Below, piece after piece: positions 57,204 to 64,000 of a stretch of 64,000 bases of DNA. Below the pieces are notes generated by a model. That model worked only from the letters and a program-made list of their open reading frames with translations, was not told where the DNA came from and did no database searches. The translations under genes were made by a program, and so were the position numbers. Origin of the DNA: Dehalococcoidia bacterium (GTDB taxonomy: Bacteria > Chloroflexota > Dehalococcoidia > SpSt-223); the NCBI GenBank assembly GCA_025054935.1, contig JANWZD010000011.1, positions 62,001 to 126,000 of the forward strand. The letters run 5' to 3'. Numbering within the stretch: the stretch's first letter is position 1; the number at the start of each line of letters is the position of its first letter.

Positions 57204-57212
57204 TGCTATCGT
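57204..57212 (+). promoter_or_regulatory. Extended -10 TGCTATCGT of the secreted glycosidase
   Basis: TGC-TATCGT 19 nt before the ATG at 57232, with GGAGGA at 57220-57225 as the ribosome site. The longer frame from 57211 would start inside this box. Confidence 0.5.
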
Positions 57213-57231
57213 GTCTTATGGAGGACAACAG

Positions 57232-58734
57232 ATGCCACTGCGTGGTAGCCCTCTGCTCGCGACGGGAGCGCTTGTGGCGTTGGGGGTTTCGCTCCTGGCC
57301 GGCCTCGGCGGGTCGACTGGAGCGGCGCAAAGCCCGACGCGGCATTATCTTCCGATCGCGATGGTGAACGACCCGAAACCCCAGAGCTCGCTCGTCGCCG
57401 TCTGGCATAAGCCGTTCGCCGACGATGCCGCTGCGGACCGCGCCGCTGTCAGCGGTGCCCGCTACGTGCGCGCGTTTATCGAGTGGCGCAATGTCGAGCC
57501 GGTCCAGACGACGCCGCCGACCTACAACTGGAGCCAGTACGACGCCGAGCTCGGCGCGATCATCAGCCGCGGCCTCGAGCCGATGCTGAACCTGACCGAC
57601 GCGCCCGACTGGGCCGCCTTCCCGAACTGCGGTCCGTTCAAGGATGCCAACGGCCAAGAGCGCTGGGTTGAGTGGGTGAAGGCGACGGTGGCGCGCTACT
57701 CGGCCCCCCCGTACAACGTGCGCTACTTCTTGCTCACGAATGAGCCCGACTTCCGGATGAAGAACCCGAACGACCGGAACGGCGGCGGCTACGGCGGCGG
57801 CTGCTGGGGGGACAACCCGGCGGCGTTTGGCGCGATGCTCCGCGCCACCTACAGCGCCGTCAAGCCGCTCTATCCTCACGTCTTTCTCGTGATGGGGCCG
57901 CTTGCATCGGACGGTTCGAACGCCGACTTCAATCTGAACTTCCTGCAGGAGGTCGTCAACCCGGCGATTGGGAATGCCGGCAATGCATTCGATCTGGCAT
58001 CGTTCAACTATTTCATCTTCTATCGCCGCAACTGGGAGCAGTACGGCACGTCGGTGATCGGCAAGGCCGAGCGGTTCCGCCAGATCATGGCGTCGGCCGG
58101 CGGCGCGAAGCCGGTGATCGTGGCGGAGACCGGCCTCGTCGAAGACGAACTAGGCGCGACCGCCGAAAGCCAGGCGATCCTCGTTCCGCAAGTGCTCACC
58201 CAAGCGCTCGCTGACCGCGCCCGCGCCACCGGCGACGGCATCCGGATCGCGACGTGGTTCTCGCTGAAAGATTTCGCCACGCCGAACAACGACTCCGATT
58301 GGGGCCTGATCGACCTCCAGAACAACCCGAAACCGGCCTACCGCGCGCTGCGCCAGTGGGTGAACGAACTGCACGGCGCGACGCTCAAGGCGAACCAGAG
58401 CGAGCCAACCTACGGGGTCACCCCGCCGGCGGGAGCGCGCCGATGCGACGCCGCGGCGACTGGAGCGACCTTCTTCTGCGACACGCTCCAGCGCTATCTC
58501 TTCACCACCACCGGCCCGCACGACAAACTGGTCGTCTGGGTTGACCCGGGCGCGAAGCCGACCACGAATTTCTATTTCAAGACGACAGCGACCCGCGTCA
58601 TCTCCTATCCCGCGAATGAGGTGTTCGGCATCCGCGACCGCGAGGGGAACCCCGTCAATTTCCCGGTCGTTGGCGGCCAGCTCCAAATCACGGTCGGGGA
58701 GAGCCCCCTCTACCTCGACGTGCTCCGAAGATAG
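57232..58734 (+). CDS. Secreted TIM-barrel glycosidase (GH-A clan-like)
   Basis: 500 aa from the ATG at 57232 with GGAGGA 6 nt upstream. A signal peptide spans about residues 1-33 (ALVALGVSLLAGLGGSTGAAQ). The barrel has FIEWRNVEP, LLTNEPDF with acid/base E171, and VIVAETGL with nucleophile E299, the GH-A pattern of retaining glycosidases (GH5/GH39-like). A ~120-residue beta-rich C-terminal domain with two Cys follows. Probably trims or remodels the exported glycan made by the neighbouring GT genes, or degrades external polysaccharide. Confidence 0.85.
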   Translation: MPLRGSPLLATGALVALGVSLLAGLGGSTGAAQSPTRHYLPIAMVNDPKPQSSLVAVWHKPFADDAAADRAAVSGARYVRAFIEWRNVEPVQTTPPTYNWSQYDAELGAIISRGLEPMLNLTDAPDWAAFPNCGPFKDANGQERWVEWVKATVARYSAPPYNVRYFLLTNEPDFRMKNPNDRNGGGYGGGCWGDNPAAFGAMLRATYSAVKPLYPHVFLVMGPLASDGSNADFNLNFLQEVVNPAIGNAGNAFDLASFNYFIFYRRNWEQYGTSVIGKAERFRQIMASAGGAKPVIVAETGLVEDELGATAESQAILVPQVLTQALADRARATGDGIRIATWFSLKDFATPNNDSDWGLIDLQNNPKPAYRALRQWVNELHGATLKANQSEPTYGVTPPAGARRCDAAATGATFFCDTLQRYLFTTTGPHDKLVVWVDPGAKPTTNFYFKTTATRVISYPANEVFGIRDREGNPVNFPVVGGQLQITVGESPLYLDVLRR

Positions 58735-58779: not shown

Positions 58780-59565
58780 TCAGACTGTCCGCAGGAAGGC
58801 GAGCATCTCGGCTGCCCACCGGTCGACGGTGTCGCGAAAGCGGCGGCCTCCTGCTGTCTCGACAAAGCGGTGCGGGCCGAGCAAGGCGCGGGCGGCGAGC
58901 GTGTTCCGATAGATCTCGTCGTCGCGGCCGACGAGGACAAGGGTCGGGCAGCGGACGGCGGGAAGCGTCGCGCTCATGTCGTAGGTGAACGCTGCCTCGA
59001 AGCCGGCCAGTGCGCGCTCGCCAAGCTGCAGGCGCTCGATCACGTCGCGCGTCGCCTCGCCGGGGTCGCCTTCACGTTTCAGGGAGAGCGAGAAGAGCGT
59101 CTGAAGATGGCTGCCGTCCTCGGCGGCCGGTGGGGTGCCAAAGCGCCCGGCACGGAGCGCCTCTAAGCGCTGGGCGCGCTCGCGCTCGTCGAAATAGGGA
59201 ATGCCGCCGAGGATGAGCGCATTCACCTGGGCCGGGGCGCGTGCCGCGAGATCGATGGCAATCGCCGCCCCGGTGTGATAGCCGTGAACGGCTGCGCGCT
59301 CGAAGCCGAGCTTCGCGATCGCTTCGCTGACGGCGTCGGCGTAGAGCGGGATGGTGGCGCGGCCGACCGGCGGGGCGGAGTTGCCGTAGCCGAGCGTGTC
59401 GAGCGCAACGACCCGACGCTCCACCGCCAGCAGGGGAATGATCGGCCGGAACATGGCGGAGGATTGCGGCGATTGGTGGAGCAGGATGAGCGGTTCGCCG
59501 GCTCCGGCGGTGAGGTAATGGATCTGGCCGAAGCGGGTCTCGACAAAGCCGCGCCGGATGGTCAT
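58780..59565 (-). CDS. Alpha/beta-hydrolase-fold protein with His at the nucleophile elbow
   Basis: 261 aa from the ATG at 59565. The fold is alpha/beta hydrolase (LILLHQSPQSSAMFRP, ALDTLGYGNSAPP, VLVGRDDEIYRN), but the nucleophile elbow reads GYHTG with H97 in place of Ser, and the usual catalytic His near the end is absent (ETAGGRRFRDTVD). A classical Ser-His-Asp triad is therefore missing. Close relative of 60074-60925, which has the same changes. Substrate unknown; possibly a non-hydrolytic role. The ATG overlaps the stop of a frameshifted VOC gene by 4 nt. Confidence 0.85.
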   Translation of the reverse strand: MTIRRGFVETRFGQIHYLTAGAGEPLILLHQSPQSSAMFRPIIPLLAVERRVVALDTLGYGNSAPPVGRATIPLYADAVSEAIAKLGFERAAVHGYHTGAAIAIDLAARAPAQVNALILGGIPYFDERERAQRLEALRAGRFGTPPAAEDGSHLQTLFSLSLKREGDPGEATRDVIERLQLGERALAGFEAAFTYDMSATLPAVRCPTLVLVGRDDEIYRNTLAARALLGPHRFVETAGGRRFRDTVDRWAAEMLAFLRTV

Positions 59566-59990
59566 GGCCAAGAGCTCCCGAGAGGCGTCATCCCCAGTTG
59601 CAGGCGGTACAGCTGAACATCGCCCCGGACGAAGCGGACCGGCTAGCCGCCCGGCGAGAGAACGCAGACGCAGGCGCCGCTCGGAACGGTGCGCTGATCG
59701 GCCCAAGTTGGGCCGCATCCCGAGCGAGCGCCCGCCGCGGGCCCCCTCGCAGTCGTCGACGAGCAGAAATGGGGCGCCCGAGGCCTGCTCGCGCCCAGCC
59801 GGCTGCTCGGGCGGCGTGCCGCCGCCGTGAAGCTCAAGGCGCGGGCCGCCGAGGTCGAAGAGAGCGCCCCGCTCGGCCGGCTCGCCGGGCGTGGGGCGAA
59901 CGTGCTCCAGCCCCCTGCTTTCCTCCCAGAACGCTGCTTCCTGCTGAAGGTTTTCTCCCGCAGGACGAACTCGGTCAGGATTGAGCGCAT
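59562..59990 (-). pseudogene. Frameshifted VOC (glyoxalase-like) gene
   Basis: The ATG at 59990 begins RSILTEFVLRE; after a one-base shift the frame reads NLQQEAAFWEESRGLEHVRP, ERGALFDLGGPRLELHGGG and FLLVDDCEGARGG, typical of a vicinal-oxygen-chelate protein. A further shift restores DVQLYRLQLGMTPLGSSWP and a stop whose TGA overlaps the hydrolase ATG by 4 nt. At least two frame changes are needed. Gene decay or sequencing error are both possible; the preserved overlap supports recent disruption or error. Confidence 0.65.
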
Positions 59991-60034
59991 AGTTCCTCTT
60001 CTCTCTTGGCGATGACGGTGTCGGCTGACAGCTA

Positions 60035-60043
60035 TGGTACGCT
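60035..60043 (+). promoter_or_regulatory. Extended -10 TGGTACGCT of the second His-elbow gene
   Basis: TGG-TACGCT, 30 nt before the ATG at 60074, followed by GAGGGA (60064-60069) as a ribosome site. Confidence 0.45.
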
Positions 60044-60073
60044 AGCCACCGATTTCGGCGACGAGGGAATGGG

Positions 60074-60925
60074 ATGGCGCGTGTCCGTCGCGGCTATCTT
60101 GCTGCCCCAACTGGGCGAATCCACTATCGGCACGCCGGACCTGATGGGGACGATGCGCCGGCGCTCGTCTTGTTTCACGAGTCGCCGCTGTCGTCGGTCA
60201 TCTTCGAGCGCGCCCTGCCGTTGCTGGGAGAGCGATTGCGCGTCTGGGCGTTCGATACGCCGGGCTACGGGCTGTCCGACCCGCCCCCGGCACCGCTCGA
60301 AATCCCGGAGTATGCGCGTTGGCTCCTCCAAGGGATCGATGCGCTCGGCATCGACCGCTTTGCGGCGGGCGGGGGGCATACCGGCGCTTCGCTCGCCATC
60401 GAGGTGGCGGCGCTGGCTGGTCCTGAGCGGGTCTCCTGCGTCATTCTCTCGGGCGTGCCGCTCCTCGCGCCGGAAGAGCGAGCCGAGTACCTTGCGAACT
60501 GGGCGCCCGAAATGGTGCTCGACGCTGACGGCGCATATCTCCGCTGGGCGTGGGAGCGCTACCAGCGGATTTGGGGACCGGACGACCCGGCACTCAACAC
60601 CCTTGCCATCATCCAGCTGCTTCAGGTCTGGGACCGCTACAGCTGGGCCTACAACGCCGCCTTCCGCCACGACCCTGCGCCCAGTCTCGCTACGCTTGCC
60701 TGCCCGATCTTGCTGCTCAATTCCGAGGACGACCTGCTGAACTTCACCGACCCGCGCGCGCTGGAACTGGCACCGCATGCCAAGCTGGTGCGCGTGCCGG
60801 GTCTGCGCGGGCAGTTGCCGTGGCGCCGTCCTGAGGTGTACGCCGACGAGACGATCGCCTTCATCCTCGGCGAGCCGCCGCGCTTCCGCTCGGCCGCAGC
60901 TGCTGAGGAGCGCCGGCCGCTCTAA
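60074..60925 (+). CDS. Alpha/beta-hydrolase-fold protein, His-elbow paralogue
   Basis: 283 aa. LVLFHESPLSSVIFERALPL, FDTPGYGLSDPP, and the elbow GGGHTGAS with H102 where Ser is expected; near the end LLLNSEDDLL is present but no catalytic His follows (PGLRGQLPWRRPEV). The paired H-x-SPxSS loop and GxHTGA elbow are shared with the divergently placed 58780-59565 gene. Probably a small subfamily of the alpha/beta-hydrolase fold with altered chemistry. Convergent with no gene; followed by the HD gene on the same strand. Confidence 0.85.
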   Translation: MARVRRGYLAAPTGRIHYRHAGPDGDDAPALVLFHESPLSSVIFERALPLLGERLRVWAFDTPGYGLSDPPPAPLEIPEYARWLLQGIDALGIDRFAAGGGHTGASLAIEVAALAGPERVSCVILSGVPLLAPEERAEYLANWAPEMVLDADGAYLRWAWERYQRIWGPDDPALNTLAIIQLLQVWDRYSWAYNAAFRHDPAPSLATLACPILLLNSEDDLLNFTDPRALELAPHAKLVRVPGLRGQLPWRRPEVYADETIAFILGEPPRFRSAAAAEERRPL

Positions 60926-63429: not shown

Positions 63430-64000
63430 ATGGTCGCGGCCGACCTCGCTCTCTACCCTCCTCATCGCCAGCACCGCGCTGTCGCGATGGGCCGGCGCGG
63501 CGCGATCGCCAGCCAGTCGCCGCTCGCTAGTGCCGCTGGGCTGCGCATCCTTCAGGAAGGAGGCAACGCGGTCGATGCCGCAATCGCGATCGCGGCGGTT
63601 GAATGCGTTGCCCTGCCGATGCTGTGCGGGCTTGGGGGCGACACATTCGCGATTGTCCATGCGCCCGATGGCCGGGTGCAGGCGCTGAACAGCAGCGGCG
63701 CCGCCCCGCTGGCACTGACCGCCGAGGAGTTTCGGCGGCGTGGGCTGACCCTGCCGCCGTTTCGGGGCGCGGAGTCGGCGGCCGTGCCGGGGAGCGTGGC
63801 GGCCTGGGAGGCGCTCTGCAACTCCTTTGGCACGATGCCGCTCTCGGCCCTGCTGGCGCCGGCGATCTGGTATGCCGAGCACGGCGTGCCGGTTGACGAG
63901 CGCCAGGCTGAGGTGATTGCGCTCGTTGCGCCAACCTTGCAGCAGGAAGCTCTGCGCGTCTACCTGCCGCGGGGACGGCCCCCTCTGCCGGGAGAACTGC
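63430..64000 (+). CDS. Gamma-glutamyltransferase, truncated by window edge
   Basis: 190 residues visible from the ATG at 63430, with GAGG 5 nt upstream. No signal peptide is obvious (MVAADLALYPPHRQHR). The N-terminal GGT block is clear: RRGAIASQSPLASAAGLRIL, QEGGNAVDAAIAIAAVECVA, CGLGGDTFAIVHAPDGRV, and AVPGSVAAWEALCNSFGTMP. The catalytic Thr of the small subunit is beyond the edge. Ntn-hydrolase acting on glutathione or gamma-glutamyl peptides; cytoplasmic GGT-like proteins are common when the signal is absent. Confidence 0.9.
   Translation, partial: MVAADLALYPPHRQHRAVAMGRRGAIASQSPLASAAGLRILQEGGNAVDAAIAIAAVECVALPMLCGLGGDTFAIVHAPDGRVQALNSSGAAPLALTAEEFRRRGLTLPPFRGAESAAVPGSVAAWEALCNSFGTMPLSALLAPAIWYAEHGVPVDERQAEVIALVAPTLQQEALRVYLPRGRPPLPGEL

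Follow-up and report, generated by a model that had tools for sequence, protein, structure and literature searches.

Among proteins of the alpha/beta-hydrolase fold there is a large family, common to several bacterial phyla and apparently undescribed, in which the nucleophile elbow carries a histidine, and whose chemistry is probably done in a new way. Two members lie in a 64,000-nucleotide stretch of a Dehalococcoidia genome (assembly GCA_025054935.1, contig JANWZD010000011.1, positions 62,001 to 126,000), referred to here as the window and numbered from its first letter. It is tentatively proposed that throughout this widespread family the elbow His would be paired directly with an Asp, that its tens of paralogues per genome may serve the catabolism of ring compounds, and that the arrangement would be one left unnamed in a recent classification of the fold. 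Few enzyme folds have been studied as thoroughly as the alpha/beta-hydrolase fold, in which Ser, Cys, or Asp is the residue assumed for the elbow. Annotated simply as “alpha/beta hydrolase”, a selected family with His at this point, numbering 20–42 genes in some small genomes, would represent overlooked catabolism. Such a family would put to the test whether His-Asp dyad chemistry is possible on this fold, and its gene clusters offer a basis for guessing substrates. As a caution, genes of this kind should not be labelled decayed hydrolases.

The two window proteins are P0001 (261 amino acids; 58780–59565, minus strand, with its ATG at 59565) and P0002 (283 amino acids; 60074–60925, plus strand). 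Both ORFs, about 38% identical and divergently placed, are as the first-pass annotation described them, and the two motifs it singled out are found in each. The oxyanion-region loop is H30-Q-S-P-Q-S-S in P0001 (59458–59478, minus strand), with Gln for the usual Gly of the HG pair, and H35-E-S-P-L-S-S in P0002 (60176–60196, plus strand). The elbow reads G95-Y-H97-T-G-A in the first (59266–59283, minus strand; H97 codon 59275–59277) and G100-G-H102-T-G-A in the second (60371–60388, plus strand; H102 codon 60377–60379). P0001 has in addition a cap motif, D150-G-S-H153 (59107–59118, minus strand), that is typical of the family. The catalytic-acid column, which follows the penultimate core strand, is occupied by D216 in P0001 (58918–58920, minus strand), the proposed partner of H97, and by D220 in P0002 (60731–60733, plus strand). 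A third hydrolase of the window, P0003 (10424–11314, minus strand), serves as a contrast: it is a canonical Ser/Asp/His enzyme outside the His-elbow family, and it does keep the full triad ascribed to it, with a GISMG elbow, the sequence SGHTINLEEP, and acid D224. Adjoining P0001 is a 507-amino-acid ORF (57211–58734) with the appearance of a glycoside-hydrolase-type secreted protein, and the start of another, gamma-glutamyltransferase-like by appearance, lies at 63430–64000 and extends past the window end.

Both proteins belong to the superfamily, scoring 56.7 (P0001) and 55.2 (P0002) bits against Abhydrolase_1 (PF00561), where the Pfam gathering score is 25.8; both are far below the curated cut-offs of the named NCBIfam families (PcaD, BphD, and haloalkane dehalogenase equivalogs). 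In HMMER alignments to solved structures with an Asp nucleophile (fluoroacetate dehalogenase, Alr0039, and epoxide hydrolase), the HTG of each falls on the catalytic-Asp column of the GHDRG-type enzymes. An AlphaFold2 model of P0001, a structure prediction of the kind the first-pass annotation had suggested as a check, is a confident alpha/beta-hydrolase fold (pLDDT 92.6, pTM 0.91) in which strand 91–96, H97 at the strand-to-helix turn, and helix 98–109 make up the nucleophile elbow. Among solved structures, its fold is closest to CarC (Z 29.5, 2.0 Å over 234 residues) and DxnB2; BphD and fluoroacetate dehalogenase likewise rank high. The model of P0002, folded from its single sequence with no alignment, is poor (pLDDT 41.5), and the case for its fold therefore rests on sequence. 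Where the canonical enzymes require Ser, Cys, or Asp there is thus H97 or H102, at the nucleophile position by the structure-alignment column in both proteins and by the modelled elbow in P0001. The C-terminal catalytic His, reported as missing, is indeed absent from both, its column holding Arg in P0001 and Gly in P0002. The acid, reported as retained, is likewise found: D216 and D220 align with D224 of P0003, in a column that is Asp in eight of nine canonical homologues from the same genome. Both proteins carry the family signature of GxHTG elbow, HQ[ST][PA] loop, DTPGxG, and acid D, P0002 deviating by HE for HQ and P0001 by DTLG for DTPG.

BLAST searches of the source genome (3.57 Mb) give about 20 family genes with 23 domains, three of the genes being head-to-tail two-domain fusions with an HTG elbow in both halves (L173, G000:C8:99089-100729; L170, C9:99192-100772; L167, C7:154202-155761). 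The elbow residue is His in 19 of these domains, Leu in three, and Met in one, and in none is it Ser, Cys, or Asp. The source-genome members are scattered, forming no consistent operon; four of them (L159, L167, L169, and L173) adjoin or lie near family-5 extracellular solute-binding proteins. The two window genes had been taken for parallel changes in two copies, but at least 17 further domains in this genome carry the elbow His as well, and P0001 and P0002 are on separate branches of the family tree. With these branches, the 38% identity, and the paralogue family, the His is best explained as inherited from the family, not gained twice; the paralogues and the tree rule out independent change in two copies.

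Orthologues in genomes of the same genus retain the GYHTGA or GG/GA-HTGA elbow. For P0001 there is one in G202 (78% identity, dN/dS 0.18), and for P0002 there are orthologues in G202 (82%) and G201 (75%), with dN/dS of 0.09–0.13. With dN/dS at 0.09–0.18 both genes are under purifying selection, and these values and the intact orthologues rule out decay or pseudogenes as an explanation. An elbow preserved in this way and common to an entire family is more than a chance occurrence. The earlier suggestion of selected, altered chemistry in place of decay is supported both by these ratios, with the HTG elbow kept, and by the prevalence of the His elbow among relatives.

That prevalence was measured column by column in 194 domains: the elbow is His in 172, Leu in seven, Gly in four, Ser in three, Asn and Trp in two each, and Arg, Met, Phe, and Ala in one each; the genome-contig sample was partly selected by the GHHTGA pattern, and the own-genome and plasmid sets and the profile-based census were not. 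An acid (D/E) accompanies the elbow His in 169 of 172 domains by profile alignment, or 165 by MAFFT, and is present in 11 (profile) or 12 (MAFFT) of the 22 domains with another elbow residue. The HG His (H30 in P0001) is nearly invariant in His-elbow domains (168/172), while the usual oxyanion Gly after it has become Gln (Q31 in P0001) in 122 of them; T98-G99, following the elbow His, is also conserved. The C-terminal His is at its own column in 38 of the 172 and, allowing one column of slack, in 55 of all 194 domains. On the tree the elbow His changes nine times, the acid eight, the C-terminal His at least 12, and the cap His at least 18. The raw association of elbow His and acid fits a His/Asp pair, but it must not be taken as proof; corrected for relatedness, co-loss of the two is not significant, the nine elbow changes yielding only six independent usable pairs. 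The paralogues L015/L082, L021, L023, L107, and L125 have a Leu or Met elbow and have lost the acid too, and several of these may form a branch of their own, non-catalytic or intermediate, near the canonical hydrolases in the tree.

The guess that further GxHTG proteins would be found in databases proved correct, with relatives both on plasmids and on genome contigs. The contigs were scanned with a pattern made from four close rows, the 13-row alignment (A1) being too divergent for this purpose; the scan returned 238 relatives, 80 of which were kept, from Chloroflexota, Pseudomonadota, Actinomycetota, Myxococcota, and others. Plasmid-borne members are found in Novosphingobium, Sphingomonas, Shinella, Variovorax, Rhodococcus, and Streptomyces, and all six plasmid members read have a His elbow, which the query did not require. 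A search of viral contigs and phages found no family member. With a strict profile cut-off, copy numbers are 42, 29, and 28 in three bins of 2.9–4.5 Mb labelled Rhodospirillaceae or Marinimicrobia, 15 in a relative of the source genome, 12 in each of two Gammaproteobacteria, and one or two in Actinobacteria. Expanded paralogue families are also reported in a paper on SAR202, but they are other ones. Fused proteins from Rhodospirillaceae (L240-L246 and L270-L273) have the His elbow in their N-terminal half and not in their C-terminal half; the second half of a fusion on plasmid pJE1 (L176:14141-15862) likewise lacks it.

Outside the source genome, members in several phyla have catabolic neighbours, among them amidases of isochorismatase type and CoA transferases. 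In marine and sponge-type Gammaproteobacteria the gene is accompanied by an AllB-like amidohydrolase, by PuuE-like deacetylases, of which there are two or three, and by one enzyme each of the isochorismatase family and the Asp/Glu-racemase family, the latter AMDase/EutA-like. Anaerolineales loci have an isochorismatase, an Asp/Glu-racemase-family enzyme, CaiB, HpaI, an aldehyde dehydrogenase, and a flavin monooxygenase; partner genes are partly similar on Sphingomonas plasmid pJE1 and on a Shinella plasmid. The neighbour enzymes fall far short of the cut-off scores for named functions. Five loci have members next to a type III polyketide synthase, at several of these loci in tandem copies; in L094, L109, L110, L111, and L118 (Rhodospirillaceae and a Marinimicrobia-labelled bin) the family genes are followed by one that is DpgA/chalcone-synthase-like. 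A biosynthetic use of the polyketide-synthase-linked members is possible, to judge by this placement.

From the conserved residues and these neighbourhoods we infer that the members are catabolic enzymes working via an elbow-His/Asp dyad. An acid that persists after loss of the C-terminal His must have some other role, and the elbow His, with a side chain longer than that of Ser, could reach this Asp. The Asp, which follows strand 7, would then hold the elbow His, in what is presumed to be direct contact, and the His would most likely serve as a general base/acid that activates water or moves protons during a decarboxylation, C-C, or amide step. The substrates would be ring-derived intermediates, positioned by the cap together with the Gln/Ser-Thr loop. 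A catabolic family with the triad rebuilt in this way, mostly without the C-terminal His, is a good possibility, if one short of probable. Against the dyad, Leu- or Met-elbow paralogues persist in the same genome, so that the His is not needed to keep such a gene; the non-significant co-loss, the scattered placing of the source-genome members, and the partly pattern-selected contig sample also count against it.

If these proteins are not enzymes, they could be sensors or ligand-binding proteins built on a hydrolase scaffold with no catalytic activity left, the elbow His binding the ligand. Gibberellin receptors are ligand-binding proteins on such a scaffold. The nucleophile, the C-terminal His, and the oxyanion Gly have all changed, and some paralogues and the C-terminal halves of fusions have Leu, Met, Gly, or Trp elbows, as might be expected of dead proteins. 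The acid, however, is retained almost exclusively alongside the elbow His, the genes occur within catabolic clusters as single enzyme genes whose neighbours are hydrolases and oxygenases and not regulators, and 28–42 copies per genome of about 3 Mb fit catabolic diversification; a binding role is therefore rather unlikely.

If they are enzymes, the elbow His could itself be the nucleophile, forming an N-acyl or N-alkyl histidine intermediate opened by water. It stands at exactly the position of a covalent nucleophile, and behind it lies the conserved backbone site T98-G99, but the HG Gly that normally belongs to the oxyanion hole has given way to other residues and most members have no His to serve as base for the second-step water, which makes covalent catalysis distinctly unlikely. 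A nucleophilic His might also still be served by the C-terminal His, as in a modified triad kept by the GGTHDIVDEQP subgroup, with the members that lack it, P0001 and P0002 among them, as secondary losses. The 38 domains with His in the canonical column do form one branch (Gammaproteobacteria, L010, and L083); most branches, however, have no C-terminal His, and the acid is conserved without it, in 45 of 71 His-elbow domains, so that a surviving triad appears quite improbable. Metal-dependent enzymes, with elbow His, cap His (H153), and acid as ligands, are very improbable, since the cap His, though common (123 of 172 His-elbow domains), gives way to Tyr, Phe, Glu, or Gln in about 30%, P0002 with its Y155 among them, and has undergone at least 18 changes on the tree, compared with nine for the elbow.

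Of the elbow-His/Asp arrangement preferred here, the open-access literature searched, a scope that takes in few subscription journals, yielded no description, whether as GxHxG or as His-elbow alpha/beta hydrolases; section 2.7 of a 2024 survey of the fold, on active-site variation, covers Ser, Asp, and Cys elbows with no mention of His (PMC11878206). The survey does cite fold members that function without a nucleophile, the Ser-less lyases and CGI-58 (PMC11878206). As described there, the Ser-less lyases retain a D/E-His dyad with the C-terminal His, whereas the His-elbow family has its His at the elbow and has usually lost the C-terminal one. Fluoroacetate and haloalkane dehalogenases and epoxide hydrolases are among the best sequence matches, with GHDRG aligned to G-Y/G-HTG, but these have an Asp nucleophile and a C-terminal His, both missing in P0001 and P0002. 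For both proteins the top NCBIfam matches include PcaD (3-oxoadipate enol-lactonase) or the PcaDC fusion (E 1e-10 to 2e-18), but at 40–66 bits, compared to curated cut-offs of 256–390, and P0001 and P0002 lack triad residues.

In ring degradation, a single alpha/beta hydrolase, the N-formylmaleamate deformylase NicD/Nfo, has an amidase and a maleate isomerase as its partners (PMC6122326, PMC7356986). Isochorismatase-family and Asp/Glu-racemase-family genes adjoin His-elbow members in several phyla, a likeness to NicD-NicF-NicE at the end of nicotinate degradation. NicD has a Ser elbow, and the resemblance is offered as an analogy, with no claim of membership. In fold, the nearest relatives of P0001 are the meta-cleavage-product C-C hydrolases CarC, DxnB2, and BphD, which are its best matches (Z 27.5–29.5, 2.0–3.0 Å, 234–249 residues) and share the core, the cap, and the position of the acid; their role is in aromatic catabolism. 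At 19–23% identity, however, they differ at the active site: theirs has Ser and a C-terminal His, while the His-elbow proteins mostly lack the C-terminal His and have the HG Gly replaced.
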